A stretch of DNA of 32,134 bases from an uncultured Gammaproteobacteria bacterium (GTDB lineage: Bacteria; Pseudomonadota; Gammaproteobacteria; Arenicellales; JAANXG01). The DNA is taken from contig CAMYNX010000042.1 of NCBI GenBank assembly GCA_947259875.1, positions 1-32,134 of the forward strand. The letters run 5' to 3'. The position numbers were made by a program, and so were the translations under genes. The notes beneath the pieces were generated by a model. The model saw nothing but the letters and a program-made list of their open reading frames with translations. It searched no databases and was not told the origin of the DNA. Every line of letters starts with the position of its first letter. Positions within the stretch are counted from its first letter, which is position 1. Positions 1,398 to 30,933 of the stretch are shown in pieces.

Positions 1398-3026
1398 TCA
1401 AGCGGCCCCTTTTTGCGGAATACCAGCGTTGACGTCCGTATTCTGCTCGCTAAGTTCTTGCACTATGTCAAACTCGACCCAGTCAAGGTCATTAGTCGCC
1501 AGTTTTATCTTGGTCGGTTGAATAAGCAAGGAGTCATCAGCGGTATCCATCACGAAGTGATGTCTCACTCTAGATACATCCTTCGGTACTATCAGGCTGC
1601 GAGTAAGCTTTTTGTCTTCCGGTATTGTTACCAGTATTGCAAGGCTCGACGGCTGAGCCACATTCTTCCTTGACCGCATGAGCACATCCTGGATTGACAC
1701 CGCTTCCGCGACGGGTCCGAATTTATATACACCGATTGTTATTTTGTTGGCCTGATTATTACGCATCCACCGAACCACTCCTACATCCCAGGCGTCTTTC
1801 TTTTTAGTTGGACGACGTACCGCGATTAACTTGCCAATGAGATTTGCGACCGGCTCAGTACTTTCTTTTGTTAATTGCACACCATTAGCACTTTCGTCCA
1901 CACAGCTCCATTCACCCAAATCGGCCGGACCGGAGTCTGCGCGAAGCTTTTGTTTTCTGAATACAACATTTTGTATATCGCTCCCTGTACGCCCACTGCA
2001 ACAGAGTTCCGATTGCCCATTCAAGAAGTAAGTCACTCCATCAAAACCATGAATCACTAGTCGTTTGTCATTGATCGCTAAACGCATACTCTTGCGTTTC
2101 AGCTGTCCTCCCCAAGCAGTGATGAGACAATCTAATAATTGACGGCGATCCCGATCCTCAACTTTGGTTTCCTGATGACCATGTTTCTTAAGCCGCTGGA
2201 AATATTGCTCCATATCTTCGATCTGGTCTTTTGCCTGCATCACATGACCCGGCCTGTCATCATCCAGATTGACGAGGAACTGGCACTTGCCCGACGGCAC
2301 AAAAGGCGGAGTCACTAATACTGCATGTACGGCCAATTGATTACAGCGATCATGAATTTCATCGACTTCTCCGTGGGCGAACTTGTATGGATCGAGAGCC
2401 GCGGTCAGGAGAATCTGTTTATAAACATGGGTGATTGTAGTTTGTGGTTTGAATGCGTTGAGCTGGTCCGTAACCGGAAACTTCAACAAATTATGCTGCT
2501 GCGCTTTCTTGACTAGTTCATGTATCGCCAGCCACACACCCTTGGGAATCGGATGATAAATGCGATATGCATCGCAACATACTGCACTAAAGTATAGAAT
2601 CGCGCGATGTATGGCCATCGCATGACTGGGCTTATCATGCCGGGTTCCCGTTAACGCAAATGACACCGCTGCCCACGCGTAACCCATAGCGAGCAAATTG
2701 TGTATCTGCGAAAGCAATGCCACTTCCGTGCGTGAAGATTCGGAAAGGGGTAGTTGTGAGCCGGTCCGCCGATCGGTCAGACGGTAGCTGATTTTTGACA
2801 ACGATTCACGGAATGCTTCTAAGACCTCGAGGCGCCGTCGTGCCGGCATGTCCACGGTATTCATAGTCGACAACATCGATTTTATTTCCGCGGCCGCTCG
2901 CGGAGCATCCGACGCCGGTAGATCGTCTAACCAGGTCTTTGCGTCGGAGCGCGAGAACGGAACTATGTGCTCACCAGCTAGACGAGCGCTATCTTGTATG
3001 TGTTGAGACAACGGATACACCCCCAC
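1398..3026 (-). CDS. Conserved protein, PilZ-like C-terminal region (putative c-di-GMP binding)
   Basis: A 542-residue soluble protein starting at GTG (3024-3026); a second in-frame GTG lies two codons on, and neither has a strong ribosome site. The N-terminal half is mainly helical and starts with W-L-D-D-L-P followed by A-A-A-E-I, a pattern I associate with a gammaproteobacterial family often labelled PilZ-like or c-di-GMP-associated. The C-terminal half contains W-D-V-G-V-V-R-W-M-R, like the beta-barrel strand seen in those proteins. No signal peptide or membrane segment is seen, and no clear RxxxR/DxSxxG pair of a canonical PilZ domain, so nucleotide binding is inference. The gene is transcribed divergently from the DUF6394/channel pair. 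Confidence 0.55.
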   Translation of the reverse strand: MGVYPLSQHIQDSARLAGEHIVPFSRSDAKTWLDDLPASDAPRAAAEIKSMLSTMNTVDMPARRRLEVLEAFRESLSKISYRLTDRRTGSQLPLSESSRTEVALLSQIHNLLAMGYAWAAVSFALTGTRHDKPSHAMAIHRAILYFSAVCCDAYRIYHPIPKGVWLAIHELVKKAQQHNLLKFPVTDQLNAFKPQTTITHVYKQILLTAALDPYKFAHGEVDEIHDRCNQLAVHAVLVTPPFVPSGKCQFLVNLDDDRPGHVMQAKDQIEDMEQYFQRLKKHGHQETKVEDRDRRQLLDCLITAWGGQLKRKSMRLAINDKRLVIHGFDGVTYFLNGQSELCCSGRTGSDIQNVVFRKQKLRADSGPADLGEWSCVDESANGVQLTKESTEPVANLIGKLIAVRRPTKKKDAWDVGVVRWMRNNQANKITIGVYKFGPVAEAVSIQDVLMRSRKNVAQPSSLAILVTIPEDKKLTRSLIVPKDVSRVRHHFVMDTADDSLLIQPTKIKLATNDLDWVEFDIVQELSEQNTDVNAGIPQKGAA

Positions 3027-6054: not shown

Positions 6055-6426
6055 CTCAACTGGGCAAAAGATGTCCAAGGATGACTAAAAGCTTTCGACG
6101 GATTTCGTCATCGCGAAGCCGAGGCGATCACGCGGCAACCTCCAACGATACGTCAATCTTGACCCACTACGTAGATTCGGCGTAGCACAATTCACCACAC
6201 GACGCTAAAGCTTCCGCGCGTTCTCGAAAACACAAGTAGACATACGGCCCATTTGCGAGCAACAGCATGTATTCCGTTACAATGTATGCTAACGCCACAA
6301 CCGGGACCGCCAATAGATCGGAATAGTACAGACTGGATTACTGTCGTACACTGATCTGCTGCGACAACCTGTCGGTTGTCAAACAACATTTTTAGTAAAA
6401 TCACAAAGAATTTTGGTCACCGCCAT
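6055..6426. other. Gene-free stretch upstream of the SDR gene
   Basis: No convincing gene is visible in about 370 bases. The segment 6106-6143 (CGTCATCGCGAAGC ... GCGATCACGCGGCAACC) resembles the widespread intergenic repeat of the CGTCATTGCGAGG...GCGGCAATC type known from many bacterial genomes; this copy would be degenerate, and the match is from memory. The rest should hold the promoter of the SDR-thioesterase pair. Confidence 0.4.
6363..6380. promoter_or_regulatory. Short perfect hairpin/dyad upstream of the SDR gene
   Basis: GACAACC (6363-6369) and GGTTGTC (6374-6380) form a perfect 7-base inverted repeat around the loop TGTC, 46 bases before the SDR start codon. It could be an operator or a leader hairpin. 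The AT-rich sequence after it has no long T run, so a terminator is less likely. Confidence 0.35.
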
Positions 6427-7128
6427 ATGAGCAGCAAACTGACCGTCATTGTCGGCGCCGGACCAGGTAACGGCCTGGCATTCGGACGTAGATTCCATGC
6501 TGAAGGACATCGTGTCGCGATGCTAGCGCGTCACGTAGACAACCTCGAGCGACTGCGGCAGCAGCTACCGGAGGCCCACTATTTTTCTTGTGATGTCAGC
6601 GAACCAGAGCAAATCCATGACGTATTCACACAAATACGACAACAGCTCGGTACCATCGATACGCTGATATACAATGCTGGCGCGGGTGCGTTTGGCAATA
6701 TCGAAGACATTACCGGGGAACAATTCGAAGCCGCCTGGCGCGTCAACGCTTTGGGATGTTTTTACTGTGTCAAGGAAGTACTTGTTGATATGCGTGGCGC
6801 CGGAGACGGAAACATCATCGTCATAGGCGCAACGGCCTCAGTGCGGGGTGGCGGAGGTTTTGCCGCATTTAGCTCTGCCAAAGGAGCGCAAAGAAATCTT
6901 GTTCAATCCATTGCGCGTCACGTGAGTCCACATGGTATCCATGTTGCATACGTCATTATTGACGGTGTCATCGACATGGAACGTACTCGTGAATACTTTC
7001 CTGACAAACCAGATGAGTTCTTCCTGCAATCTGATGACATCGCGAAAACAGTTTTTCATTTAACCAGACAACCTCGATCAGCTTGGACATTTGAGTTGGA
7101 TATGCGTCCATTCAAGGAAAATTGGTAA
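6427..7128 (+). CDS. Short-chain dehydrogenase/reductase family protein with Phe in place of the catalytic Tyr
   Basis: A 233-residue SDR protein starting at M-S-S-K-L-T-V-I-V. The Rossmann cofactor loop is G10-A-G-P-G-N-G-L, close to the classical TGxxxGIG. C-D-V-S and N-A-G-A follow in the expected places. At the active site the usual Y-x-x-x-K reads F148-S-S-A-K152, so the catalytic tyrosine hydroxyl is missing. The segment G-I-H-V-A-Y-V-I-I-D-G-V-I-D is typical of an SDR subgroup which, as I recall, often carries this Phe. The protein may thus be a non-classical oxidoreductase or a binding protein. An in-frame ATG 51 bases upstream gives an extension without family features. The thioesterase gene follows with a 5-base gap. 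Confidence 0.8.
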   Translation: MSSKLTVIVGAGPGNGLAFGRRFHAEGHRVAMLARHVDNLERLRQQLPEAHYFSCDVSEPEQIHDVFTQIRQQLGTIDTLIYNAGAGAFGNIEDITGEQFEAAWRVNALGCFYCVKEVLVDMRGAGDGNIIVIGATASVRGGGGFAAFSSAKGAQRNLVQSIARHVSPHGIHVAYVIIDGVIDMERTREYFPDKPDEFFLQSDDIAKTVFHLTRQPRSAWTFELDMRPFKENW

Positions 7129-7133
7129 CTCCA

Positions 7134-7565
7134 GTGAGCGACAACGACAGGACACAAGAAAAAGCAGTTGACCTTCCCCGGGATCGTGAACCTGTAATCC
7201 GTATCATTCCACTACCGAAGGATACCAATCCCGGTGGTGACATCTTCGGAGGTTGGATCATGTCCCATGTTGACCTCGCCGGCGGTGTAATTGCGGCGCG
7301 GCGCGCCAATGGACGTGTGGCTACCATCGCGGTTAACTCGTTTACCTTCAAAAAACCGGTACTGGTGGGAGACTTGGTCAGCATTTATGGTCACGTCATC
7401 CGTGTGGGCAATACTTCGGTTACCGTCGGGCTCCAGGTATTCGCGGAGCGTCGCTGGCTAAGCGACAAGCCTGGCCGATGTGTCAAGGTGACAGAAGCCG
7501 ATCTGACCTACGTTGCAATTGATGATAATCGGCATCCACGTCAAATCCCGCCCGACCCTGCTTGA
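7134..7565 (+). CDS. yciA: Acyl-CoA thioesterase, YciA-type hot-dog fold
   Basis: A 143-residue hot-dog protein close to the YciA/BACH group, which hydrolyses acyl-CoA to free acid and CoA. The signature N-P-G-G-D-I-F-G-G-W-I-M-S-H-V-D-L-A-G-G holds the catalytic Asp and the helix that covers the CoA site. The patterns G-R-V-A-T-I-A-V-N-S-F-T-F-x-K-P and V-G-D-L-V-S-I-Y-G match the central strands, and V-T-E-A-D-L-T-Y-V-A-I-D matches the last strand. Start choice: GTG at 7134 directly after the SDR stop is preferred; a TTG at 7122 would overlap the SDR gene by 7 bases. Neither has a well-spaced ribosome site, suggesting translational coupling with the SDR gene. Confidence 0.85.
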   Translation: MSDNDRTQEKAVDLPRDREPVIRIIPLPKDTNPGGDIFGGWIMSHVDLAGGVIAARRANGRVATIAVNSFTFKKPVLVGDLVSIYGHVIRVGNTSVTVGLQVFAERRWLSDKPGRCVKVTEADLTYVAIDDNRHPRQIPPDPA

Positions 7566-7700: not shown

Positions 7701-10700
7701 ATGACGATAAAAGCTGACGATTTGGATTACCAAGCACTGCAGACCCTAGAAGGACTACAGCATCTCGATCATCAATTCCTGTTATCAGTCGAGGAACGCG
7801 ATCCCGGTCTTTACGATCAGTTGTGCCGTTATCGGAACTCCGACACAAAACTCAGCGCATTGGAGATTAGCCGTCTGTTGTTAGCTGTCGCACCCATGCT
7901 GGAGGAATTTCTGGCGCACCGTTTTGGCATCAAAGCTTCGTTGCAAGAGGTCAATGAGGATATCGACAGACAGAACCTGGTTGCGCAATTCAAGAAGGAG
8001 TTTGTGCAAAAACGCGCACGTAGGATACATGGTAATGACTCCGACTCGTTCTCTTCGCTGTCACAATGGCTGGACAATCAGGTTGCACACTATCCAGAAG
8101 CAAGGTCTGATAAAGAGCTTGCGGTAGCTAAGTTCGCAAATCATCTCCTGGATGATCCGGAAACCAACGCCTCGTCAGTGGCGCATCTAACCGAGTGGTG
8201 CGCGCGTGCGCGACAGCAGAAGAATGATGAATCAGCGGTGAAGGATTGGATCAGCTTTCGGTTACCGCAACCGGTCGATCCTGCTCGCCTAGTGCCGTTG
8301 AACAAGAGCACCAACGGGCCCATTGAGCGACTCGAGGCCAGAACGGAAACACTGCGCCGTCGGGACGGTTTTTCTCTTACCGATTCACGCATGTCTATGC
8401 GTGAGGTGATGGACCAAGTTAATTATTGCGTTTATTGCCACAATCAGGACGGCGACTTCTGCTCCAAGGGATTCCCAAAGAAAAAGAAACAACCGGAACT
8501 CGGGCTCAAGGTCGACGCATTAGGCGTCACCCTGACTGGTTGTCCATTGGAGGAAAAGATCTCAGAGATGCAGTTGTTGAAACGGGATGGCAAAAACTTG
8601 GCCGCACTCGCGGTCGCCATGGTGGACAACCCGATGATTCCCGCCACCGGGCATCGGATCTGTAACGATTGCATGAAGGCTTGCATTTACCAAAAGCAGG
8701 ACCCCGTAGATATCCCACAAATTGAAACCCGCGTATTGACCGACGTGTTAAATCTGCCGTGGGGGGTCGAGATCTACGACCTGCTGGTGCGCTGGAATCC
8801 GCTGCGCCGCCGGCAATTCCTGCCGCGCCCTGACAACGACCGCAAAGTCCTGATCGTCGGCATGGGGCCCGCGGGTTTCACCATGGCCCATCACCTGACC
8901 ATGGAAGGCTGCACCGTGATTGGCATCGACGGACTGAAAATTGAGCCGTTACCACAACACCTCATCGACGAACCGGTGCACAGTTATGCTGATTTATGTG
9001 AGTCGCTGGAGGAACGAATCATGGCTGGGTTCGGGGGGGTCGCTGAATACGGCATCACCGTGCGCTGGGACAAGAATTTCCTGAAATTGATTTATCTCAC
9101 ACTCGCGAGAAGGTCCTCGTTTCGCGTGGTCGGTGGCGTCCGATTTGGCGGAACAATGACCTTGGATGACGCCTGGTCACTGGGCTTTGATCATGTGTGC
9201 GTCGCGACAGGCGCCGGGTTACCTCGGGTTGTCGGGATGGGCAACAGCCTTGCCCGCGGCATGCGTCAAGCCAATGACTTTCTGATGGCATTACAACTCA
9301 CCGGGGCCGCAAAGTCGGACAGTCTGGCAAATCTCCAGGTGCGATTACCCGCCGTGGTCATTGGTGGTGGTTTGACCGCCATCGACACCGCCACCGAGGT
9401 CCAGGCTTATTACGTGAAGCAAGTCGAAAAAACCTTGGATCGCTTTGAACAACTCACCGCGAGGCAAGACGAGCAGTCGCTGTTCGACGAGCTGGATGAG
9501 GAAGGACGACTCGTTCTAAACGAGTTCTTGCAACACGGCCAGGCGGTGCGCGCCGAACGAGAACGGGCGGCAATCACTGGCGAGCGCCCCGACTTTAACC
9601 GGTTAATTCGAGAATGGGGGGGCGTGACCATTCTTTACCGCCGCAGCATTAACGAATCCCCGGCATACCTGCGTAACCATGAGGAGATCATCAAAGCCAT
9701 GGAGGAAGGCGTTTACTATGTCGAAGGTCTGGAACCATTGCGTGCGGAACTTGACCATTTTGGGCATGTAGAAACGTTGGTATGTCGACAGCGCGTAAAG
9801 CGGGAGGGTCGTTGGATGTCCCTCGGCAAAGAAGTGAATGTGCCTTCCCGCGCAATTATGGTCGCCGCTGGCACGTTTCCAAACATCATCTACGAACTCG
9901 AACATCCGGGCACCTTACGCATCGAAGACAACCATTTTCTTGCTCACGTGGCCCATAGGCATGGCGTGCAGCCGGTGGGGGTTGCCGAACATTGCAAGGC
10001 ACCGGAGTTTGGCCCGTTTACGTCTTATGATCGAGACCATCGCCGCGTGAGCTTCATCGGTGATGCCCATCCGGTATTTAATGGCAGTGTGGTGAAAGCT
10101 ATCACCTCCGCCAACCGAAGCTACCCGGAAATCGTTGCCGATTTGATGGCATTACCCGAACCCCGACCAAGGCATTCGGATCCGTCACTGTTTATCCACG
10201 CTGTAGCTGACCAACTGACCACACGCATTGCCGACATTGATTTCAAACATCCTGTCGTCATTGAACTTTGGGTGCGGGCGCCGATGGCGGCAAAGAATTT
10301 CCAGCCTGGGCAGTTTTTTCGCCTGCAGACCTATGAAACATCGAGTCCCAAAAGCAACGGTACACGCTTGCAGATCCCGTTGTTGACAATCAGCGGCGCC
10401 GGAGTGCGGGGAGATTGCGTTCGATTGCTGTTATTGCGATTCGGAGCCAATGCCCAACTTGCCGAGCAGCTCAAACCTGGTGATCGAATTGTGTTGATGG
10501 GACCCACCGGCGCACCAACTGAGATTGATAATGACAAGACCGTTCTCGTAATCGCCGGCAGCTGGGGGGCAGCGGTGATGCTTGGTCTGGGCCCCGCGCT
10601 CCGCGCCAAGAATAATCGTGTCCTTTACTTCTCTGCTTACGATACGGCAGAACAAGTATATTATCAGGATGAATTGGAGCAATGTGCGGATCAAATCGTA

Positions 10701-11183
10701 TGGGCGACTGCAGAAGGAGCGCCGATTACCGCAAATCGTCCCCAAGACATCAGCGTCCAGAGCCGCAACGTCATTGATCTGCTACGACAATATCACCGCG
10801 GCGAATTTTCGGGACCGGACCAAGGAATCCAGTTAACCGATGTAAATGAGGTTTTGGTCATTGGTTCGACCGGTTTGCTTAGAGGGCTTCAGTCAGCAAT
10901 GCAGTCCGACCTACGCCACATATTCCGCGAAGACGTTAACATCCTGGGCACAGTGGGTAGCCCGATGCAGTGCATGTTGAAGGGTGTCTGCGCACAATGC
11001 CTGCAATGGCAAATAGATCCCGACAGTGGCGAACGTACCCGTGCAGTATTCTCGTGCGCCATGCAAGACCAACCTTTGATGTGGATCGATATCGACAATC
11101 TGGCGGCACGACAGGCACAAAACCGCCTGCAGGAACACCTTGGTGCAATGTGGGTGGAATATGTACTGGACAAATCCGGTTGA
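7701..11183 (+). CDS. Large Fe-S flavoprotein oxidoreductase, NfnB/GltD-like fused to NfnA/PyrK-like
   Basis: A 1160-residue cytoplasmic protein. Residues 1-230 are helical and not recognised. Next comes a ferredoxin-like cysteine region: C243-x2-C246-x7-C254, C281, C321-x2-C324-x3-C328, resembling the two-cluster N-terminal domain of GltD, NfnB and dihydropyrimidine dehydrogenase. A two-dinucleotide flavin domain follows (FAD motif G387-M-G-P-A-G392; second nucleotide motif G555-G-G-L-T-A with I-D-T-A). After about residue 830 there is a ferredoxin-reductase-like module (P-G-Q-F-F-R-L flavin strand, V-L-V-I-A-G-S-W-G nucleotide loop) and a [2Fe-2S]-type set C1091-x5-C1097-x2-C1100-x18-C1119, as in PyrK/NfnA. 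The domain content equals NfnB plus NfnA in one chain. NAD(P)H-linked transhydrogenase or electron-bifurcating activity is a hypothesis. It is probably transcribed alone. Confidence 0.75.
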   Translation: MTIKADDLDYQALQTLEGLQHLDHQFLLSVEERDPGLYDQLCRYRNSDTKLSALEISRLLLAVAPMLEEFLAHRFGIKASLQEVNEDIDRQNLVAQFKKEFVQKRARRIHGNDSDSFSSLSQWLDNQVAHYPEARSDKELAVAKFANHLLDDPETNASSVAHLTEWCARARQQKNDESAVKDWISFRLPQPVDPARLVPLNKSTNGPIERLEARTETLRRRDGFSLTDSRMSMREVMDQVNYCVYCHNQDGDFCSKGFPKKKKQPELGLKVDALGVTLTGCPLEEKISEMQLLKRDGKNLAALAVAMVDNPMIPATGHRICNDCMKACIYQKQDPVDIPQIETRVLTDVLNLPWGVEIYDLLVRWNPLRRRQFLPRPDNDRKVLIVGMGPAGFTMAHHLTMEGCTVIGIDGLKIEPLPQHLIDEPVHSYADLCESLEERIMAGFGGVAEYGITVRWDKNFLKLIYLTLARRSSFRVVGGVRFGGTMTLDDAWSLGFDHVCVATGAGLPRVVGMGNSLARGMRQANDFLMALQLTGAAKSDSLANLQVRLPAVVIGGGLTAIDTATEVQAYYVKQVEKTLDRFEQLTARQDEQSLFDELDEEGRLVLNEFLQHGQAVRAERERAAITGERPDFNRLIREWGGVTILYRRSINESPAYLRNHEEIIKAMEEGVYYVEGLEPLRAELDHFGHVETLVCRQRVKREGRWMSLGKEVNVPSRAIMVAAGTFPNIIYELEHPGTLRIEDNHFLAHVAHRHGVQPVGVAEHCKAPEFGPFTSYDRDHRRVSFIGDAHPVFNGSVVKAITSANRSYPEIVADLMALPEPRPRHSDPSLFIHAVADQLTTRIADIDFKHPVVIELWVRAPMAAKNFQPGQFFRLQTYETSSPKSNGTRLQIPLLTISGAGVRGDCVRLLLLRFGANAQLAEQLKPGDRIVLMGPTGAPTEIDNDKTVLVIAGSWGAAVMLGLGPALRAKNNRVLYFSAYDTAEQVYYQDELEQCADQIVWATAEGAPITANRPQDISVQSRNVIDLLRQYHRGEFSGPDQGIQLTDVNEVLVIGSTGLLRGLQSAMQSDLRHIFREDVNILGTVGSPMQCMLKGVCAQCLQWQIDPDSGERTRAVFSCAMQDQPLMWIDIDNLAARQAQNRLQEHLGAMWVEYVLDKSG

Positions 11184-13421: not shown

Positions 13422-14309
13422 TTACGATAACTTAAGGCGATTCCGTGCCTCGAGAACCTGCAGCACGGCGGTAGTATCTAATTCACCGTACCCCGAATCC
13501 ACGGTCCGATTAATACCCTCAGCGGCCAGTTTAGTGCCATCTAGATCGAGCTGGCAGTCACGCATGGTCTCCAATGCGATACGCATGTCTTTGTTGTGCA
13601 ACTTCGCCTTGAAACCAGGTACAAAATTACGGTCCAGCATACGCTGGCCATGGAAATCCAACACCCGGCTGGCGGCAAATCCACCGAGCAAGGCTTCCCG
13701 CACACGGCCAGGATCGACTCCGGCCGCCTTGGCCAGCAACAACGCCTCTGCAGTTGCTAAAATATGCTGCGCCACCAACAGTTGGTTACAGGCCTTTGCC
13801 ACCTGGCCGGCGCCATGATCCCCTACCAGAACAATATTCTCACCCATAGCCTCCAACAACGGTTTCACGCGGTCAAATACCGCTGGATCACCGCCAACCA
13901 TTATCGATAAGGTACCCTCCCGTGCGCCAATATCGCCGCCAGATACCGGCGCATCCAACATATCCATGCCTGTCTCCGCCAGCCGTGTCGCCAAGTCGCG
14001 CGCGGATGAAGCGGAACTAGTCGTCATATCGACTAGCACCTTACCCGGGACCGCCGCCTCAATTACGCCTTTAGCGCCAAGCACAATCTGTTCCACATCC
14101 GGCGTATCACCAACTATCGTGATAATAACGTCTGCATGATCGGTTACTTGTTCCGGCGAGTCGCATAGGGTGGCCCCAGCCTGGATCAACGGCAAGGCCT
14201 TTTCTTGTGTACGTGCGAATACCCACACCGGATAACCGGCACGGATCACGTTCAATGCCATGGGCAGACCCATAATGCCGGTACCGATGAATCCTACTTT
14301 GTCAGTCAT
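13422..14309 (-). CDS. garR: 2-hydroxy-3-oxopropionate (tartronate semialdehyde) reductase
   Basis: A 295-residue member of the beta-hydroxyacid dehydrogenase family. It has the N-terminal Rossmann motif G-F-I-G-T-G-I-M-G-L-P-M-A, the substrate-binding motif D-A-P-V-S-G-G, and the catalytic-lysine segment G-A-G-Q-V-A-K-A-C-N-Q. It reduces tartronate semialdehyde to D-glycerate with NAD(P)H. The divergently placed glycerate kinase 51 bases away would take the next step, which favours this substrate over 3-hydroxyisobutyrate. GAGG seven bases before the ATG supports the start. Glyoxylate carboligase is not in the window. The closest alternative is 3-hydroxyisobutyrate dehydrogenase. Confidence 0.85.
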   Translation of the reverse strand: MTDKVGFIGTGIMGLPMALNVIRAGYPVWVFARTQEKALPLIQAGATLCDSPEQVTDHADVIITIVGDTPDVEQIVLGAKGVIEAAVPGKVLVDMTTSSASSARDLATRLAETGMDMLDAPVSGGDIGAREGTLSIMVGGDPAVFDRVKPLLEAMGENIVLVGDHGAGQVAKACNQLLVAQHILATAEALLLAKAAGVDPGRVREALLGGFAASRVLDFHGQRMLDRNFVPGFKAKLHNKDMRIALETMRDCQLDLDGTKLAAEGINRTVDSGYGELDTTAVLQVLEARNRLKLS

Positions 14310-14360
14310 GTGTTAACCTCATTATCCTGTGCCGTCCAAAGCTGAATTTTACAAATACCA

Positions 14361-15623
14361 ATGCAACTGTCAGATAACCCCAAAAACTTGTTATTGGAAC
14401 TTTACAACACCGCGGTCGATTCAGTACATCCGACACGCTGCGTACCACCGTTGCTACCGCCACCACCTGCTGGACGCACCATTGTCATCGGCGCCGGTAA
14501 AGGCGCTGCGGCGATGGCCCATGCCGTCGAGGAAAACTGGGCATCGGGTTGCGAGGGCACCGTGGTTACCCGCTACGGACATAGCGTTCGCTGTCAATCC
14601 ATCAGAGTCATCGAGGCCGGCCATCCGGTTCCCGACGACGTGGGACAAACTGCCGCCCGCGAGATCATGGAACTGGTGTCCGGTCTGAATAAAGACGACA
14701 TGGTGCTGTGTCTGATCTCCGGTGGCGGCTCCGCATTGCTATCGCTACCCGCGCCCGGCGTCACTTTAGCGGACAAACAGCATATCAACCAACAACTACT
14801 CAAGTCCGGCGCCAACATCAGCGAGATGAATACAGTACGCAAGCACCTATCCGCCATTAAGGGTGGGCAACTCGCACTGCGATGCGCGCCGGCCCAAGTG
14901 GCGACGCTGATTATCTCGGACGTGCCTGGTGATGATCCAGCCACGGTTGCCTCCGGTCCCACGGTACCCGATCACACCACTCAGCAAGATGCTCTCGCAA
15001 TCCTAGACCGCTATAGCATTGACACTGGTAATCATATCCTCTCCCATCTCTCCGATCCAAGAAATGAGACGCCCAAACCGGGTGATCCTCGATTCGAGCG
15101 AGTATCAAATACCGTGATTGCAACCGCACGCCAGGCATTGCATGCCGCGGCATCGTTTTGCGATCAGCATGGCATTAAGCCTCTGGTGCTCGGTGATGAT
15201 ATCGAAGGTGAAGCAAGCGAGGTAGCGGTAGAACATGCGGCACGTGCAAACCGTTTGTTGCAAGACTCCGGTAACCGTTCATGCGTGATCCTGTCCGGCG
15301 GCGAAACCACCGTGACCGTGCATGGCGCCGGCCGTGGCGGACGTAACGTGGAATACCTGCTGAGCCTGGCGATCGCCCTGGGCGATCAACACAATATCTA
15401 TGCGCTGGCTTGTGATACCGATGGCATAGATGGTACCGAAGACAATGCCGGCGCGATGATTACACCGGATACCTTGGATCGTGCCCGGGCTTTAGACCTC
15501 GATCCCGCAGCTTATCTGCAAAACAACGATGCTTATGGCTTTTTCTCGGCATTGGATGACCTGGTCATAACCGGTCCAACGCTCACCAACGTCAACGACT
15601 TTCGCGCCATCTTTGTGTCTTGA
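14361..15623 (+). CDS. Glycerate 2-kinase (MOFRL family)
   Basis: A 420-residue protein of the TtuD/GckA type. The N-terminal GCK domain shows V-I-G-A-G-K-G-A-A-A-M-A, the L-I-S-G-G-G-S-A-L-L phosphate/nucleotide loop and the L-I-I-S-D-V-P-G-D-D motif. The C-terminal MOFRL domain shows L-S-G-G-E-T-T-V-T-V and G-R-G-G-R-N-V-E. It phosphorylates D-glycerate, giving 2-phosphoglycerate in this enzyme class, so glyoxylate- or tartrate-derived carbon enters lower glycolysis. It is divergent from the tartronate semialdehyde reductase gene with a shared 51-base promoter region. The start lacks an obvious ribosome site but matches the usual N-terminus. The end faces the convergent SPOR-barrel gene 15 bases away. 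Confidence 0.88.
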   Translation: MQLSDNPKNLLLELYNTAVDSVHPTRCVPPLLPPPPAGRTIVIGAGKGAAAMAHAVEENWASGCEGTVVTRYGHSVRCQSIRVIEAGHPVPDDVGQTAAREIMELVSGLNKDDMVLCLISGGGSALLSLPAPGVTLADKQHINQQLLKSGANISEMNTVRKHLSAIKGGQLALRCAPAQVATLIISDVPGDDPATVASGPTVPDHTTQQDALAILDRYSIDTGNHILSHLSDPRNETPKPGDPRFERVSNTVIATARQALHAAASFCDQHGIKPLVLGDDIEGEASEVAVEHAARANRLLQDSGNRSCVILSGGETTVTVHGAGRGGRNVEYLLSLAIALGDQHNIYALACDTDGIDGTEDNAGAMITPDTLDRARALDLDPAAYLQNNDAYGFFSALDDLVITGPTLTNVNDFRAIFVS

Positions 15624-15638
15624 TGACCGGGCTCTGAC

Positions 15639-17225
15639 CTAAAAGTGGTAAGACAGTCCCAGCTGAGCGTAATCGTCGCGACGCAGGGAGTACAAGGGAT
15701 CATCTTCAGTAAGTTCTTGAAACGTCCGGACTTCAAGCTCGATCATCCAGCGAGCGCCCAACCGGCGGCTGGCCTCCACGTTACAAAGTCTCGCCGACGA
15801 ATCCATGTCAAAGATGCAACCCAGTAAGGCCTCGGTGCTTTGCACGTCGTTCAACGTCAATCTGACTCCGGCAAAGACATCGTCGTCGAACGGGGAATCT
15901 GTATCTATGGGACGATCATCATAGAGATATTCCATCACCAGCCCCAGATCCGTTGGGGTTTCGAACAACCCAAACAAGGTGTATTCAAATCCAGCGGTGC
16001 TGGCGACGAATGACGGTCCCTGTCCTGACCGGCGCATCGCCTCCAACTTCCACAACCACGAGCCCTTGGTGGCTTGCACGTCCAAGCCAGTTTGATCGAT
16101 CTGATCATAGATAGGAAACATGACTACTTCACCATCGTCACGAGTACCGGCAGTAAATCTCGGGTCGCGGCTGGTTCCGGTGAAATGGGATAGTCCGAGG
16201 TCCCAATCTCCGGGGGAATGCGCCCAACGGACCGCAAAATCAATGTGCTCCTGCTCGCGCGAGGACTCGTAGATAGCACCATCCGGATCGACTCTAGGTA
16301 TCATACGCAATCGACCCTCGGGTCCGGGGAATGTACGTTCGCGGAAGTATGGCAGCACAAAGAAATCCAGCGTACCCCAGTCGCGAATCAACGCGAAGTT
16401 GACCATCGGCTGACCAAGCTTATCTTCGGTGTCGATGTTCTCGACTAAGTCGGTTTGGTTGATGATGTCAACAAGATGCTGGGACTCGGTAACGCCCCAA
16501 AACACCTTGCGTACGCCGATGCGTAGTTCCCAACCATTCCGCGCAGTCAACCACGTAAGTTCACGGATATCGAAATGGGTGCGTTCGTCGTCATGTTGAT
16601 CCAACCGGAGAAACGGTACAAAGGTGAATGAGTCGCGTCCATTGTTCCATGCATAGTACAGTTCCGGTTGTACCGCTAGCGAGAAGTTGTCACCGTGCTG
16701 GCGCGGATCAACCGGTGAATGAAAGAACGTTCGATACTCGAGATCCGCATACCCGGACCATTCCGGCCGGGTAGCCTCAGTGCGAGAAGTTTCAGGCTCG
16801 GAAGAGACTTGCGGCGAAGGTACCGTCTGAACAATCAACGGCGTGGTTACCGGTTCCGGCTCCGTCTTGGCGGTGTAGGGCTGCACCAGCAATGCGACGG
16901 GGTAGTTGCGAACAAAACCAGAATAACCCAGCGCGGCTAATTCCAACTGCACCTTACGCGCTTGTTCACGTTGGGAAAACGGACCCACCAATACCGTAGT
17001 GAGTGTTCGCACCGGCCGACCGATACCCCAAAGCCTGGTGTTGAGAAATCCCGCCTCGCCAAGGCGCGTGATGGCGCGTTCAGCATTGCCGCGGTTCGCG
17101 AAGGCGCCTACTTGAACCGCAAAATCGCCCTCGGAAGGATCAGCGTGTACGCCCAGCACGAACCCCACTATCAAGGCTATCCAACCACGCACGAGGGTGC
17201 GACCGCGCCCGGAACCAATGCTCAT
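15639..17225 (-). CDS. Outer-membrane beta-barrel protein with N-terminal SPOR domain
   Basis: A 528-residue exported protein. A signal peptide (about 1-28, cleaved near V-H-A-D) is followed by a SPOR domain at about 34-108 (F-A-V-Q-V-G-A-F-A-N-R-G-N-A ... V-L-V-G-P-F), a Pro/Thr/Glu-rich linker (about 115-155) and a long region of alternating aromatic strands ending in Y-H-F, the terminal-Phe signal for barrel insertion. SPOR domains bind septal peptidoglycan lacking stem peptides; the barrel resembles those accompanying LolA-like/MMPL export systems. It is 69 bases downstream of the LolA-like gene on the same strand, so the two probably form one unit. Barrel function is unknown; a role in lipid or envelope export comes from the neighbour. 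Confidence 0.7.
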   Translation of the reverse strand: MSIGSGRGRTLVRGWIALIVGFVLGVHADPSEGDFAVQVGAFANRGNAERAITRLGEAGFLNTRLWGIGRPVRTLTTVLVGPFSQREQARKVQLELAALGYSGFVRNYPVALLVQPYTAKTEPEPVTTPLIVQTVPSPQVSSEPETSRTEATRPEWSGYADLEYRTFFHSPVDPRQHGDNFSLAVQPELYYAWNNGRDSFTFVPFLRLDQHDDERTHFDIRELTWLTARNGWELRIGVRKVFWGVTESQHLVDIINQTDLVENIDTEDKLGQPMVNFALIRDWGTLDFFVLPYFRERTFPGPEGRLRMIPRVDPDGAIYESSREQEHIDFAVRWAHSPGDWDLGLSHFTGTSRDPRFTAGTRDDGEVVMFPIYDQIDQTGLDVQATKGSWLWKLEAMRRSGQGPSFVASTAGFEYTLFGLFETPTDLGLVMEYLYDDRPIDTDSPFDDDVFAGVRLTLNDVQSTEALLGCIFDMDSSARLCNVEASRRLGARWMIELEVRTFQELTEDDPLYSLRRDDYAQLGLSYHF

Positions 17226-23811: not shown

Positions 23812-23946
23812 TTACGCAGCTGCGTCCAACATAGACTTGATCCGCTGATAATCCCTGGCCATCGACTTTGACATCGCAATGGTGCCCGCATTAACGAAAT
23901 TTTCGTGATTGGCGATTACCATATCCGGATCGTATCGATAATTCAC
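23812..23946 (-). pseudogene. Out-of-frame C-terminal end of malonyl-CoA decarboxylase
   Basis: Forty-four codons in another frame than the main decarboxylase gene encode V-N-Y-R-Y-D-P-D ... N-H-E-N-F-V, which fits the conserved C-terminus of the family (compare N-Y-R-Y in the human enzyme, and N-Y-L-Y-D with N-H-E in bacterial ones). It begins exactly where the main frame leaves family similarity, so it is the detached end of the same gene. It ends at a TAA at 23812-23814. Confidence 0.75.
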
Positions 23947-25138
23947 CGTTTGCGAGATGAAACTCAGCGACCGGATCATGCAAGCTTCCGTCTTCACGAC
24001 GTGCCCTAGTCAAATAAGCCAACACCGTCAATCGAAGCGCTTGCCGCAGTTCTTCGTGTTGTTGATTGCGCTCATCGCCCACCGCCGCTAACAAGGCCTC
24101 GATCACATCGTCCAAACCAGTGAGGTCGCGCAAATCATCGGCGAAAGCCCCCAAGACATCGCGTACCAAATTGGAATCAAAAGCAGTCGGCAAGCGTTCA
24201 GTCGCTATGTTTTGCAACGCACTGGAGAATCTGGGAATTGGAGAAAGCGTGGTAAATGTATTAAGTGATGGAAATTCTTGCTGCAACTCGGCTAACACTT
24301 GCTTAATCAAGAAATTCCCAAACGATATACCACGTAATCCCCGCTGAGTATTATTTATTGAATAAAAGATGGCGGTATCTGCTTGTTGCGGCTCTGCAAT
24401 AGGCAAGTTCTGATCAATTAATGGTGGGATAGTTGTTGCAATCCCCTTCATTAGCGCCACCTGCACGAAAATGAGTGGCTCATCCGGTAAGGCTGGATGG
24501 AAAAAAGCGAAACAACGTCGATCCTTTGCTAACCGTCGACGCAGATCGTCCCAGCCCTTTATTTCATGCACTGATTCATACGCTATCAATTTCTCCAATA
24601 TATGCGCAGGACTAGTCCATTCGATGCGTTCGAGCCGCAGAAACCCGCGATTGAACCAGGACTCGAATAGATGTTTCAGATCCGCATCTACAAGTCGTAG
24701 GTGGGGCCGCGCCCGTGCCAAACGGATCAGATCAGCGCGCATACCGACTAATGCCTTTGTTCCGTACGGCGCCATATTCAATTGTCGAAACAGTTCTTGT
24801 CTGGGAGGCTCAACCGCTTGAATTAACTTGATCAAATCATCGTCACGCTCGGTTTCAAAATATCTCTGTGCAGTACCGCTAATTTCACTTGGGTTCGGTC
24901 CGAAGCATGAATATAGCAGCTCGAAAAACTGTATGCGTTCTGCATCGTCCGCGTCTGAATACCGTTGTAAAATATCCCTCGCTATGGCGATTGATGATGC
25001 CTCCCCGTGCCCATCGAGCAGTTTTTGACACCATTCCTCCATTGAATCGCCATCGCTTTTCCCTGCTTGCATGCGCAGCAGTTCACGACCGCGGTCGGCG
25101 ACGGTCTCCATAAGACGGTCCAGCCACTGCGTTCTCAT
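23891..25138 (-). CDS. Malonyl-CoA decarboxylase, C-terminus frameshifted
   Basis: A 415-residue decarboxylase that turns malonyl-CoA into acetyl-CoA and CO2. Visible are the helical N-terminal domain (E-P-P-R-Q-E-L-F-R-Q-L-N), the catalytic GNAT-like domain (F-A-F-F-H-P-A-L-P-D-E-P-L-I-F-V, the F-Y-S-I-N-N-T-Q-R-G-L-R-G-I-S-F-G-N-F-L-I-K segment, L-S-P-I-P-R-F) and the catalytic-His motif D-P-V-A-E-F-H-L-A-N-G. After N-G the frame departs into 17 unrelated residues, while the expected end continues in another frame. About 25 codons (near 74 bases) seem lost at the junction around 23944-23947. The ATG overlaps the dctM stop by one base, so translation is coupled to the TRAP operon. Activity is doubtful if the sequence is correct. 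Confidence 0.85.
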   Translation of the reverse strand: MRTQWLDRLMETVADRGRELLRMQAGKSDGDSMEEWCQKLLDGHGEASSIAIARDILQRYSDADDAERIQFFELLYSCFGPNPSEISGTAQRYFETERDDDLIKLIQAVEPPRQELFRQLNMAPYGTKALVGMRADLIRLARARPHLRLVDADLKHLFESWFNRGFLRLERIEWTSPAHILEKLIAYESVHEIKGWDDLRRRLAKDRRCFAFFHPALPDEPLIFVQVALMKGIATTIPPLIDQNLPIAEPQQADTAIFYSINNTQRGLRGISFGNFLIKQVLAELQQEFPSLNTFTTLSPIPRFSSALQNIATERLPTAFDSNLVRDVLGAFADDLRDLTGLDDVIEALLAAVGDERNQQHEELRQALRLTVLAYLTRARREDGSLHDPVAEFHLANGELSIRSGYGNRQSRKFR

Positions 25139-26454
25139 TATAGTGTTGGTCCCATCAGGTAGTCCGGTAACCACGTGGCGATTTGAGGAAACACGCACAA
25201 AAGTACAATGCCGATGACCATGCAGAGCATAAATGGCAGCGCCCCCCATAGCACTACCGGTAGCTTTACATCAGGAACAATGCCGTTGATGACGTACAAG
25301 TTAAGGCCTACAGGAGGAGTAATCAGGCCTATCTCCATATTGACCGTCAGGACGACGCCGAACCATATCGGATCAAATCCGGCCTGCGTAATGATCGGCA
25401 GGAGCGTCGGCGTGGTCATCAAGATCACCGCCACCGGTGGCAAGAAGAACCCGGCGACAAGCAAAAAGATATTGACGAACAACAACAGTATCCAGCGGTT
25501 CACGTCTAGCGTAGCAATCCACTCAGCGATCCCTTGGGTGATGTACAAGGTCGACATCATGTAGCTGAATAATGCCGCCATCCCGATGATCAGCATCAGC
25601 ATCACGGATTCACGAGTTGCGGTCCTCAAGATCGACCACAACGCAGCCGGCCGCCACACCCTGTAGATCAGCATCACCAACATGATCGCGAAAAAGGCGC
25701 CGACACCGGCTGCCTCCGAAGGCGTCGCAACGCCACCATACAGTGCCCACAACACGAGCACGATGATGATCAGAAACGGGATGACCTTAGGCAAAATGAC
25801 GAATTTTTCTTTTAATGAGAAACTCTTGTCTTCCTCGATAAATCGATAGCCCTTGGAGTAGGCGTATATCCACGCCCAGGCCATAAACAACAACGTCAGC
25901 ATCATGCCAGGCAGCAAACCGGCGATGAACAACCGGCCGATAGACGTCTCGGTCGAGATGCCATAGACAATCATGGTGATACTGGGGGGAATCAGAATCC
26001 CGAGTGTGCCACCGGCGGCAATGGCCCCCGTCGCCAGTCCTGCGGGGTACCCGCGCTTGCGCAGCTCGGGAATCCCCATTTTCCCAATCGCCGCGCAGGT
26101 CGCCGGTGACGAGCCGGTCAATGCCGCAAACACGCCACATGCTCCGATATTGGAGATCAGCAATCCTCCCGGTACCCGATACAACCAACGGTCCAGGGCT
26201 TCATAGAGATCCGCACCGGCCCGGGATGCGGCCACCGCGGCGCCCATCAGCAGGAACATGGGGATGGACAACAACGCGAATTCATCCAGACCGCCAAATA
26301 AGGTCTCGGCTATGACATTGAAACTGCTGGGGCCGTCGACAATCAACAGAAACAGAATCGCCACCGATCCCAGCGCAAAGGCCACTGGCATACCGGTGAT
26401 CAAGAATAGTATTAACGCGCCCGCCGCCAGTACTCCCCAGGCCAATTCGGACAT
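25138..26454 (-). CDS. dctM: TRAP transporter large permease (DctM/MatM-like)
   Basis: A 438-residue inner-membrane protein with about 12-13 helices and DctM family patterns: G-M-P-V-A-F-A-L-G, L-L-S-I-P-M-F-L-L-M-G, the scissors-motif region G-A-C-G-V-F-A-A-L-T-G-S-S-P-A-T-C-A-A-I-G, G-G-T-L-G-I-L-I-P-P-S, and E-I-G-L-I-T-P-P-V-G-L-N-L. It couples Na+ entry to solute uptake. The start overlaps the dctQ stop by one base, and its own stop overlaps the decarboxylase start. Linkage to malonyl-CoA decarboxylase suggests malonate as substrate, as in the rhizobial matPQM system. That is inference from context. Confidence 0.92.
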   Translation of the reverse strand: MSELAWGVLAAGALILFLITGMPVAFALGSVAILFLLIVDGPSSFNVIAETLFGGLDEFALLSIPMFLLMGAAVAASRAGADLYEALDRWLYRVPGGLLISNIGACGVFAALTGSSPATCAAIGKMGIPELRKRGYPAGLATGAIAAGGTLGILIPPSITMIVYGISTETSIGRLFIAGLLPGMMLTLLFMAWAWIYAYSKGYRFIEEDKSFSLKEKFVILPKVIPFLIIIVLVLWALYGGVATPSEAAGVGAFFAIMLVMLIYRVWRPAALWSILRTATRESVMLMLIIGMAALFSYMMSTLYITQGIAEWIATLDVNRWILLLFVNIFLLVAGFFLPPVAVILMTTPTLLPIITQAGFDPIWFGVVLTVNMEIGLITPPVGLNLYVINGIVPDVKLPVVLWGALPFMLCMVIGIVLLCVFPQIATWLPDYLMGPTL

Positions 26455-26966
26455 CAGGGCCCTTCCTCGATCCCGAACGGAGTATCGCGTCCGGACACCA
26501 AGTTAATAATATCGACCAGGTATTGCAGCGACAGGATGCCGAAACCGACAGGCATCGCCAGATAGGGTATCCACAACCGCACTTCCCAAATGGTATCCGA
26601 CAACCAGTCACTGTCCCAGGACTCCAGCCACAACTCATATCCCAACCAAGCAATCAGCACACAAAAAACAAAAGCGAACGCATAGGCCAGGAGCGCCAGA
26701 TAAAACCTGGGCCGGGAAGCGAGATACATCGGCACTAACTCGACATTGACGTGACCCCGAGTCAACAACACGTAGGGGCTGCCCACGAACGTGGCCGCAA
26801 TCAACAGATAAGTCACGAACTCGGTTTGCCAGTAAGATGATTCCTGCAACACGTAGCGGACCCAAACCATGTGGCACACAACGGCTACGGAAACCAGGAT
26901 CATAACCGCTGCAATGACCCCGCAAACCTTGGACAGGAACTCGACACCCTTTGCAAAGCGTTTCAT
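26454..26966 (-). CDS. dctQ: TRAP transporter small permease (DctQ/MatQ-like)
   Basis: A 170-residue protein with four hydrophobic helices (about 13-36, 47-66, 88-108, 133-152), as expected for the DctQ subunit that joins DctM in the membrane. The motif Y-W-Q-T-E-F-V-T-Y-L-L-I and the later H-V-N-V-E-L-V follow the family pattern. It has AGGA close to the ATG. It ends overlapping dctM. It lies 80 bases after dctP, with a strong hairpin in the gap. Confidence 0.88.
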   Translation of the reverse strand: MKRFAKGVEFLSKVCGVIAAVMILVSVAVVCHMVWVRYVLQESSYWQTEFVTYLLIAATFVGSPYVLLTRGHVNVELVPMYLASRPRFYLALLAYAFAFVFCVLIAWLGYELWLESWDSDWLSDTIWEVRLWIPYLAMPVGFGILSLQYLVDIINLVSGRDTPFGIEEGP

Positions 26967-26991
26967 CGTCCTAATCTACACGCATGTCAGA

Positions 26992-27025
26992 AGCGGACTG
27001 CCAATACAAAGATCGGCAGTCCGCT
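26992..27025 (-). promoter_or_regulatory. Intercistronic hairpin between dctP and dctQ
   Basis: AGCGGACTGCC (26992-27002) and GGCAGTCCGCT (27015-27025) form a perfect 11-base stem with a 12-base loop, in the gap after the dctP stop. No T run follows in the reading direction, so it is more likely a 3' stabilising or partial-attenuation structure that lets the binding protein be made in excess over the permease. Confidence 0.75.
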
Positions 27026-27046
27026 CACATCCCGTTGATGCACGTT

Positions 27047-28054
27047 TTAATCGACCGACAAAGCCAAGTCCAGCAGTTCGCGGCCGCCCTTAACCTTGTC
27101 CGCAAACGCCTTGTACGAGCTCGTGTTGGCAATATCACGCCACATCTTGGCTTGCTCGGCGGTCATGGTGACCACCTTCACGCCCGCTTTTTTATAGACA
27201 TCGACGAGACGATCGTCGGTCTTCTTGGCTTCCACAAAGGCATACTCCTCTGCCTTTTTCGCCGCCTTCATGAGCGCGTCCTGTTGTGTGGAATTCAGCT
27301 TATTAAAGCTCTTGATGGACATCAATATCGGTTCGTACATCACCCACAAGGCATGGTCGCCCGGGGCGGTGAGACACTTGACCTGTTCATAGAGACGATA
27401 GGAGACGAAGCTGGCCGAGCTGGTGTTGGCGGCGTTCAACACACCGGTCTGCAAAGCAGTATAGATCTCGGAACTGGGCATCGACGCAATCGAAGCTCCA
27501 GCCGCTGCCAGCATCTGTTCAAATGCCTTGCCAGCGGCGCGAAATTGCTGACCTTTCACGTCCTTCGGCTCTAAGATACAAGCCTCTTTCGACGCAAAAC
27601 CACCGGCTAGCCAAGTATCCGCCAACACCATTACGCCGGCGTCATTCATGATTTTCTTGATTCGGTTCATGAATTCCGAATTGTTCAGGCGTTTGGCGTG
27701 ATCATGGTTCTTAACCAGTCCCGGCATTAGTGTCAGATTGAACTCAGGATGTTTGCCGCCGGCATAAGCCAATGGAAACGCGCTGATATCAAGGTTACCC
27801 CGGGTCATCGCGGTCCATTGTTCCTTTGGTTTGAACAGGGATTTGCCGGGATAGACCTTAATGTCGATACCGACACCCGCGTTTTTTGTATCCCGCGCGA
27901 TGAGTTGTACCATTTCGTCGCGAATATCGCCCTTGCCGCCGGGCCACTGATGGGACGCCCGCATTTGCACATCTGCCGCCACTGCGGCTGTAGGCGCCGC
28001 CAGGCATAACGCACCCAGTGCCGCGGCCAGGGTCGAAAACATCAACTTTCTCAT
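27047..28054 (-). CDS. dctP: TRAP transporter solute-binding protein (DctP family)
   Basis: A 335-residue periplasmic protein: signal peptide (about 1-27, ending A-V-A-A), then a DctP fold with V-Q-M-R-A-S-H-Q-W-P-G-G, the conserved G-Q-Q-F-R-A-A-G-K-A-F-E segment that carries the carboxylate-binding Arg, and Y-T-A-L-Q-T-G-V-L-N-A-A-N. It captures a carboxylate for the DctQM permease. GGAGG about eight bases before the ATG fixes the start. It is first in the operon dctP-dctQ-dctM-decarboxylase. Malonate or a related acid is suggested by that linkage only. Confidence 0.92.
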   Translation of the reverse strand: MRKLMFSTLAAALGALCLAAPTAAVAADVQMRASHQWPGGKGDIRDEMVQLIARDTKNAGVGIDIKVYPGKSLFKPKEQWTAMTRGNLDISAFPLAYAGGKHPEFNLTLMPGLVKNHDHAKRLNNSEFMNRIKKIMNDAGVMVLADTWLAGGFASKEACILEPKDVKGQQFRAAGKAFEQMLAAAGASIASMPSSEIYTALQTGVLNAANTSSASFVSYRLYEQVKCLTAPGDHALWVMYEPILMSIKSFNKLNSTQQDALMKAAKKAEEYAFVEAKKTDDRLVDVYKKAGVKVVTMTAEQAKMWRDIANTSSYKAFADKVKGGRELLDLALSVD

Positions 28055-28469
28055 CTCTAATCCTCCAATCGGTTATGTATAACTATTGCGAACCGGGCAT
28101 TCTAAAGCAGAATCGGCCATTTACCGAAATTCGATAGGCGTGCTATCCAGCTTTTTACCACTTTGGGCCAATCTTCCGAGGATCTCCGAACGCCAGCTAA
28201 CTCTTACCCAATCAAGCCCACGCCGATATAAGCCCTGTGTCGTGAGGTATCTCGATGATTGATACGCACCCACCGCTGATTAGCGGCGCATCAGCTCCGT
28301 CATGAAAACTTTATTTATACCAACGATTTCATCGGCCCATTTCGGTCGATGACACCGTTGTTGGTAATCGTTATTATTGCAAGCGCGGCGTGCGTCGCGA
28401 AAATCACTGCTTGTTGCTTGGCGCAGTTAGCTAATCTAACGAGTGACAACAACCTGGAGAACGACCGCT
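28055..28469. other. Divergent intergenic region between dctP and the malonyltransferase gene
   Basis: About 415 bases without a supported gene. It should hold the promoters of both the TRAP operon and the malonyltransferase gene. On the dctP side, TTCGGT and TAGAAT lie 18 bases apart (minus strand, about 28095-28125), a plausible sigma-70-like pair. No clear operator was identified. Confidence 0.4.
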
Positions 28470-29456: not shown

Positions 29457-29563
29457 GGCGTCGGTCCGACTTTGCAACAGGATTGGCGATGACATTCCAC
29501 AATCCCCGTCACATAACCCAAATCTCAAGACCACCTTCTCACGTGTCCGGCCTTACCCAGCTA

Positions 29564-29887
29564 TCATACCTGCTCCAGCTCTATCAAGGTGCCGCAAAAA
29601 TCCTTGGGATGTAGAAACAACACCGGTTTGTTGTGCGCACCGATCTTGGGGTTGGCGTCACCGAGCTTGGGATTCCGGCTCAAGAATTTTGCAATAGGTG
29701 AATCGTCGCCCAGCGGATGCAGCAACTCGATTTTGGTATTTGCAAGTTCTACAAACACAGTGGTTACACCGTGTTCGGGCATATCCACCGGTTCGGATAC
29801 TTCCGCCCCCAGCGTATCACGATAAACCGCACTACCGACCGCCAGATCCGGCACAACAATAGCAACGTGGTTCAATCTACTAATCAT
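29564..29887 (-). CDS. mce: Methylmalonyl-CoA epimerase, internally deleted
   Basis: A 107-residue VOC-fold protein matching methylmalonyl-CoA epimerase, which interconverts the (S) and (R) forms. The first half is canonical: L-N-H-V-A-I-V-V-P-D-L, G-V-T-T-V-F-V-E-L-A-N-T-K-I-E-L-L-H-P-L-G and S-P-I-A-K-F-L. The end is canonical too: P-K-I-G-A-H-N-K-P-V-L-F-L-H-P-K-D-F and L-I-E-L-E. The block normally between them (G-G-I-H-H-x-C-Y-E-V-D-D-I ... G-A-R-V), about 28 residues, is absent, and with it one metal-binding His; normal length is near 134. The junction is near 29666. It lies 49 bases after meaB on the same strand. It is probably inactive if the sequence is right. Confidence 0.85.
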   Translation of the reverse strand: MISRLNHVAIVVPDLAVGSAVYRDTLGAEVSEPVDMPEHGVTTVFVELANTKIELLHPLGDDSPIAKFLSRNPKLGDANPKIGAHNKPVLFLHPKDFCGTLIELEQV

Positions 29888-29936
29888 CAGGGGCCCCCGT
29901 ATTCAATTTGTCGATGGGCGTCGAGTGATAATCGCG

Positions 29937-30923: not shown

Positions 30924-30933
30924 GGATGCAGTC

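Follow-up and report, generated by a model that had tools for sequence, protein, structure and literature searches.

Does a single polypeptide in an aerobic-type gammaproteobacterium carry out electron transfer of the kind known from the two-subunit Nfn flavoenzymes? The question is raised by an open reading frame (ORF) at positions 7701-11183 of the forward strand in a 32,134 nt stretch of DNA (contig CAMYNX010000042.1, here called the window) from an uncultured Gammaproteobacteria bacterium. A sequence-only reading had described this ORF as an NfnB-type part joined to an NfnA/PyrK-type part behind 230 unrecognised residues, and had proposed that it might be a bifurcating or transhydrogenase enzyme of a different kind. 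We find that the gene encodes a real, conserved single-chain NfnB-NfnA protein with an N-terminal helical domain, and we put the probability that it is an Nfn-type enzyme moving electrons between NADPH and low-potential iron-sulphur centres at about 0.7.

Domain architecture and predicted structure

The ORF begins with ATG and its translation is 1160 amino acids long, as had been read. Profiles, a sequence search of the PDB and the predicted structure all agree on one polypeptide in which an NfnB-type part is followed by an NfnA/PyrK-type part. Pfam recognises Pyr_redox_2 at residues 382-575 and, below threshold, Fer4_20 at 279-345, with no other match. Residues 851-1007 match the NCBIfam models PRK12778 and PRK06222 of the PyrK/NfnA type, and the top PDB sequence matches are both subunits (L and S) of Pyrococcus furiosus NfnI. 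The top NCBIfam match overall is NF005128/PRK06567 (613.7 bits), which aligns from residue 7 and so includes the N-terminal domain. It is named by NCBI 'putative bifunctional glutamate synthase subunit beta/2-polyprenylphenol hydroxylase'.

An AlphaFold2 model built from 64 native relatives has a pLDDT (predicted local distance difference test score) of 86.8 and a pTM (predicted template modelling score) of 0.90. Residues 189-817 of this model superpose on the NfnI large subunit 5jfc_L with a Z of 20.7 over 443 of 463 residues (root mean square deviation 2.7 Å, 26% identity, TMt 0.82), ahead of GltD (Z 18.5), StnABC/NfnABC (17.8-17.9) and dihydropyrimidine dehydrogenase (DPD, 17.2). The C-terminal ~320 residues of the predicted model match NfnS with a TMt of 0.84 for 5jca_S and 0.81 for 4ylf_A. 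Structure prediction against NfnAB had been suggested as a check of the sequence-only reading, and these superpositions speak for it: as modelled, the NfnB fold with its Fe-S, flavin adenine dinucleotide (FAD) and NADPH domains and the NfnA fold with its FNR-type FAD domain, NAD domain and [2Fe-2S] extension are both present.

The N-terminal residues 1-200, folded alone, give an all-helical domain with a pLDDT of 90.4. The statement that about 230 residues are unrecognised holds in that they have no detectable relatives, and needs correcting in extent, as ~200 helical residues are followed by a linker into the Fe-S domain. The best Foldseek match to the domain has an E value of only 3.7, the top VIA match has a Z of 5.2 over 71 residues, and no consistent Pfam family was found; this lack of a structural match does not by itself prove a novel fold. 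No stand-alone copies of the domain were found among 200 genomes, where its profile matched only genes of this family. The domain is common to the whole family and is thus no peculiarity of this gene, as it had first appeared to be.

Conservation of cofactor ligands

Residue conservation was counted in 64 family sequences. The cysteines and the glutamate of the two Nfn [4Fe-4S] motifs, RCx2Cx4Cx3CPV and GRVCPQExQCx3Cx13Gx2ER, are all present and invariant or nearly so, with different spacing (Cx2Cx7C...GCP and GHRICNDCMKAC). From DPD and GltD we assume that the two ligand sets are C243/C246/C254/C328 and C281/C321/C324/E342. The cysteines of the [2Fe-2S] cluster and the two-cluster domain are conserved in every sequence except at C254, which is present in 63 of 64 (Table 1).

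Conservation of the bifurcating-FAD pocket had been named as a further check. R455, in the flavin loop, is invariant (64/64), and a profile alignment with NfnI sets it on the arginine of YGIPEFRLPK. Every Nfn has that arginine, which is in contact with the N5 atom of the bifurcating FAD (PMC6405883). The GltD-type sequences compared here carry lysine at this position (YGIPGFKLEK). Nfn has two arginines for the 2'-phosphate of NADP; at the aligned site R647 is likewise invariant (64/64), and position 648 is lysine in 40 members and arginine in 24, the window protein having RR.

Departures from Nfn in the NfnA half

The NfnA subunit is marked by DGTGMCGxC, whose aspartate ligates the [2Fe-2S] cluster (+80 mV), and by the ERxPxT strand at a-FAD (PMC6405883). 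The aspartate is replaced by cysteine in 64 of 64 members, and ERxPxT by PLLTIS in the window protein and EGLALT elsewhere. Three types of NAD loop occur: GGGLGNAV, with a wide distribution, in 29 members; AGxWGAAV, including the AGSWGAAV of the window protein, in 22; and scrambled loops in 13, from Legionellales/Coxiellaceae, Thiomargarita and others. With the NfnA hallmarks absent and the NAD loop altered, it is doubtful, for the window's subtype at least, that NADH is a partner.

In the 13 scrambled members conservation is lowest in the NAD domain (0.49), compared with 0.78 for the Fe-S domain, 0.75 for the FAD/NADPH part and 0.74 for the [2Fe-2S] part. A shortened member of 1035 aa (L031), from a 1.39-Mb genome (G383), has lost the NAD glycine loop and has kept the cysteines of the [2Fe-2S] cluster. 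Because the NAD domain is degenerate in these proteins, NAD(H) at the site in the NfnA half is unlikely to be essential to the job of the family. The [2Fe-2S] cluster is under constraint throughout. PyrK, for comparison, ligates its [2Fe-2S] cluster with cysteines only.

Distribution and gene neighbourhood

A match was found in 13 of the 41 relatives' genomes, own genome included. Where the match is full-length, identity is 58-92%; in one genome the gene is divided between two contigs, and in another the sole match is N-terminally incomplete and 49% identical. A second subtype, 48-49% identical and represented by L014 (G007) and L013 (G003), occurs inside the window's own family, and G007 carries both subtypes. 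In a sample of Proteobacteria the gene was matched in 17 of 398 genomes (own included) at 38-48% identity, and scanning a single genome for each species yielded at least 552 stretches that encode a relative. The best 80 of these include Acidithiobacillus, Nitrococcus, Thiomargarita, Methylococcales (among them Methylococcus capsulatus), Legionellales/Coxiellaceae, Rhodospirillales, Acidobacteriota (Pyrinomonas), Myxococcota and Nitrospirota; several of the named carriers are aerobes.

In its own genome the gene occurs once, and a single locus was likewise found in each of seven genomes that were checked. No neighbour family is conserved in the 80 loci. A conserved operon partner was sought and rejected: the largest neighbour cluster, a short-chain dehydrogenase, occurs at only nine loci, and outside the window's genus it does not lie upstream of the gene. 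Neighbours on the same strand and no more than 100 bp away are found upstream in 9 of 63 cases and downstream in 13 of 63. As neighbours are not conserved and close same-strand neighbours are rare, the enzyme seems to work from a stand-alone gene. In hundreds of genomes the same architecture is encoded by a single-copy gene that mostly stands alone.

Relation to known proteins

With NfnAB/NfnSL (Thermotoga maritima 4YLF, P. furiosus NfnI 5JCA/5JFC and Xfn 5VJ7) the 1160-aa protein has in common both subunit folds, as predicted, the putative ligand sets for two [4Fe-4S] clusters (differently spaced) and one [2Fe-2S] cluster, an arginine that aligns with the one at the bifurcating FAD, and the NADP arginine motif. 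It differs in being one chain in B-A order with an N-terminal helical domain, in having a helical hairpin in the NADPH domain and an insert of ~30 residues ahead of the flavin loop, both family-specific, in carrying YGITVRWDK in place of YGIPEFRLPK and cysteine in place of aspartate at the [2Fe-2S] cluster, and in the changes to its a-FAD and NAD motifs.

'Pattern C' denotes fused Nfn proteins of Actinobacteria and Proteobacteria in which B precedes A (PMC6405883). Judged by length (~944-970 aa) and domain order, PRK12779-type proteins appear to be Pattern C, and they resemble the 1160-aa protein in being single chains, B then A, with an N-terminal extension of ~200 residues. PRK12779 members, however, keep the canonical YGIPEFRLP and DATGMCGAC, which the 1160-aa protein lacks, and the window protein scores 84.5 bits against the PRK12779 model (cut-off 1519). 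Homology of the N-terminal domain to the PRK12779 extension was not detected (hhalign probability 0.3%, with a shallow PRK12779 alignment). In a quick tree of the B module, for which treekit cautions against misplaced long branches, the family forms one clade, separate from PRK12779 and GltD, whose branch measures ~5.9 changes per column; we read from this tree separateness alone and no particular sister group. GltD and the N-terminal half of DPD have the fold of the Fe-S/FAD/NADPH part, and lack a PyrK/NfnA half in that arrangement. One further fusion, L122 (G231; 996 aa), is in A-B order and keeps the canonical Nfn motifs, and its additional C-terminal extension resembles a rubrerythrin/ferritin-type domain (PRK12775-like).

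NF005128/PRK06567 broadly describes the same family. Its curated cut-off is 1072 bits, and the tested members score ~600-775 bits, all below it, as does the window protein. L031 is close in length to the model (1031). NCBI thus already has a model that covers most of the protein, under a misleading name. Among the papers searched, we found none that names PRK06567 or brings both halves of the NCBI name together, and no characterisation of the family.

Host metabolism

The window's own genome (91% complete) has three matches to the COX1 family of haem-copper oxidases and none to rnfC, in line with the aerobic-type gammaproteobacterium that the sequence-only reading had assumed. It has six POR-domain matches, so low-potential ferredoxin can arise in the host. 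PntB is present in 40 of the 41 relatives, with or without the gene for the 1160-aa protein, and in the host itself. A replacement of PntAB by the 1160-aa protein is therefore rejected: the protein does not stand in for the ordinary transhydrogenase.

Proposed function and alternatives

The predicted fold, the ligand residues, the NADP motif, their conservation across the family and the solitary gene are what the analysis shows directly. On this evidence we infer two FAD and three clusters, NADPH as the two-electron partner and ferredoxin at the [4Fe-4S] end, together with a direction of flow and a coupling between two branches. NADPH would exchange hydride with the NfnB-type FAD at the site formed by GGGLT...YRR and the flavin loop YGITVRWDK. 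From this flavin electrons would leave singly. One branch would lead over the two [4Fe-4S] clusters to a carrier of low potential, ferredoxin being the likeliest, and the other over the all-cysteine [2Fe-2S] cluster to the second FAD in the NfnA-like half and on to a second partner, which in the window's subtype is probably not NAD+. In the aerobic host, which has several genes for 2-oxoacid:ferredoxin oxidoreductases and lacks Rnf, the enzyme would in vivo probably recover the electrons of ferredoxin as NADPH, possibly by confurcation with the second donor. The N-terminal helical domain may serve as a docking or regulatory module.

Some observations weigh against this proposal. An all-cysteine [2Fe-2S] cluster would be expected, from its ligands, to lack the +80 mV potential of the aspartate-ligated NfnA cluster, which weakens an Nfn-like bifurcation scheme. 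The flavin loop at 445-451 is the worst-modelled stretch of the protein (pLDDT below 50), too poor to fix the geometry of the N5 arginine. One genome (G027) has the gene without a POR match; a POR-type source of ferredoxin is consequently not required, and strict dependence on a 2-oxoacid:ferredoxin oxidoreductase is rejected. The interpretation first offered is supported in part, namely for the single-chain Nfn-like enzyme with its full set of cofactor ligands and an N-terminal domain lacking detectable relatives; bifurcation or transhydrogenation is a hypothesis. That the 1160-aa enzyme truly bifurcates or confurcates is possible and would hinge on its second partner and on the potential of the all-cysteine [2Fe-2S] cluster, but on balance we would not expect it.

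The departures in the NfnA half bear directly on whether the protein works as an Nfn-type enzyme that turns over NADH/NAD+ there. Both halves have the Nfn fold, the ligands and NADP residues on the B side are alike, and in the 29 members that keep GGGLGNAV a dinucleotide may bind on the A side. We nevertheless regard this as unlikely, given the loss of the aspartate in all 64 members, the absence of ERxPxT, the AGSWGAAV loop of the window's subtype, the scrambled loops in which conservation falls to 0.49 against 0.75 for the FAD/NADPH part, and the presence of PntB in any case. The all-cysteine, PyrK-like ligation fits a non-bifurcating NADPH diaphorase or reductase, in which electrons would flow linearly to one acceptor (ferredoxin-like, quinone-like or a redox enzyme docked by the N-terminal domain) and the PyrK-like half would be the outlet, as in dihydroorotate dehydrogenase B. 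The occurrence of the family in named aerobes and the existence of non-bifurcating relatives with the B fold (GltD, DPD) are consistent with such an enzyme; the invariant R455 at the place of the Nfn N5 arginine, where GltD has lysine, and the retention of two separate flavin modules argue against it, and we hold it to be a serious though improbable explanation.

The NCBI label would instead make the protein a fusion of a hydroxylase with an enzyme of the glutamate synthase small-subunit type. NF005128 is indeed the best NCBIfam match, and the B fold is common to GltD. Yet the C-terminal half is PyrK/NfnA-like and not a hydroxylase, no neighbour family, and hence no GltB, is conserved at the 80 loci, and GltD sequences lie across the long branch of the quick tree, so that we give this reading hardly any credence.

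Feature coordinates and other genes of the window

Table 1. Features of the gene and its product, in window coordinates.
Feature	Position	Strand	Remark
Whole gene	7701..11183	+	1160 aa single-chain Nfn-like flavo-iron-sulphur protein
N-terminal all-helical domain, aa 1-200	7701..8300	+	Family-specific; matching fold not found
Two-cluster [4Fe-4S] domain, aa 201-378	8301..8834	+	NfnB/GltD/DPD type
C243-x2-C246-x7-C254, first cluster motif	8427..8462	+	C243 64/64, C246 64/64, C254 63/64
C281 (GCP), cluster ligand	8541..8543	+	64/64
C321-x2-C324-x3-C328, second cluster motif	8661..8684	+	64/64; aligns with CPQExQCxxxC of NfnL
E342, presumed non-Cys ligand	8724..8726	+	64/64; aligns with conserved Glu of Gx2ER in NfnB
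GxGPAG FAD-binding motif, aa 387-392	8859..8876	+	
YGITVRWDK flavin loop, aa 450-458	9048..9074	+	Counterpart of YGIPEFRLPK
GGGLT dinucleotide motif of NADPH Rossmann domain, aa 555-559	9363..9377	+	
Helical hairpin within NADPH domain, aa 567-640	9399..9620	+	Family-specific
Y646-R647-R648	9636..9644	+	Aligned with NADP-phosphate arginines of Nfn
NfnA/PyrK-type FAD beta-barrel, aa 841-945	10221..10535	+	ERxPxT motif lost
NfnA/PyrK-type NAD domain, aa 946-1080	10536..10940	+	AGSWGAAV glycine loop, remodelled
C1091-x5-C1097-x2-C1100-x18-C1119, all-Cys [2Fe-2S] ligand set	10971..11057	+	Each 64/64

Just upstream of the gene, at 6376-7565(+), the window encodes a short-chain dehydrogenase and a YciA-type thioesterase; the same pair lies upstream at locus L033, and these are not general neighbours of the family. 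Elsewhere, a group at 23891-31022 comprising malonyl-CoA decarboxylase, a TRAP transporter (DctM, DctP), an acyltransferase and MeaB resembles a cluster for uptake and use of malonate or methylmalonate, and divergent genes for tartronate semialdehyde reductase and glycerate 2-kinase at 13422-15623 form a glycerate pathway pair. At E 0.01 neither Pfam nor NCBIfam matches a 542-aa ORF at 1398-3026(-), and the only part of a 528-aa ORF at 15639-17225(-) that Pfam recognises is an N-terminal SPOR domain (32-106).

Implications

A survey of bifurcating enzymes, which used strict NfnL/NfnS cut-offs and gene adjacency, reported Nfn from anaerobes alone, with a single acidobacterium as the exception (PMC6085437, Poudel et al.). 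A distant single-chain family would likely escape such a screen. What emerges here is a separate single-gene clade, with the Nfn set of cofactor ligands, in hundreds of genomes, including those of aerobic lithotrophs, methanotrophs and acidobacteria, carried under a misleading annotation. We offer only as a tentative, rather doubtful proposal that this is a widespread single-gene bifurcating or confurcating enzyme of aerobes, linking NADPH and ferredoxin through its Nfn core, serving a non-NAD second partner with its remodelled NfnA half and carrying an unrecognised helical N-terminal domain. If bifurcation or confurcation in aerobes were true, the view taken in PMC6085437, that aerobes practically lack Nfn-type bifurcation, would be overturned. 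The drift of the NAD half offers a natural experiment in exchanging the second partner of a bifurcating-type flavoenzyme. Coupling of NADPH and ferredoxin by this protein, if it occurs, would explain how low-potential electrons are poised in aerobes that have no Rnf.

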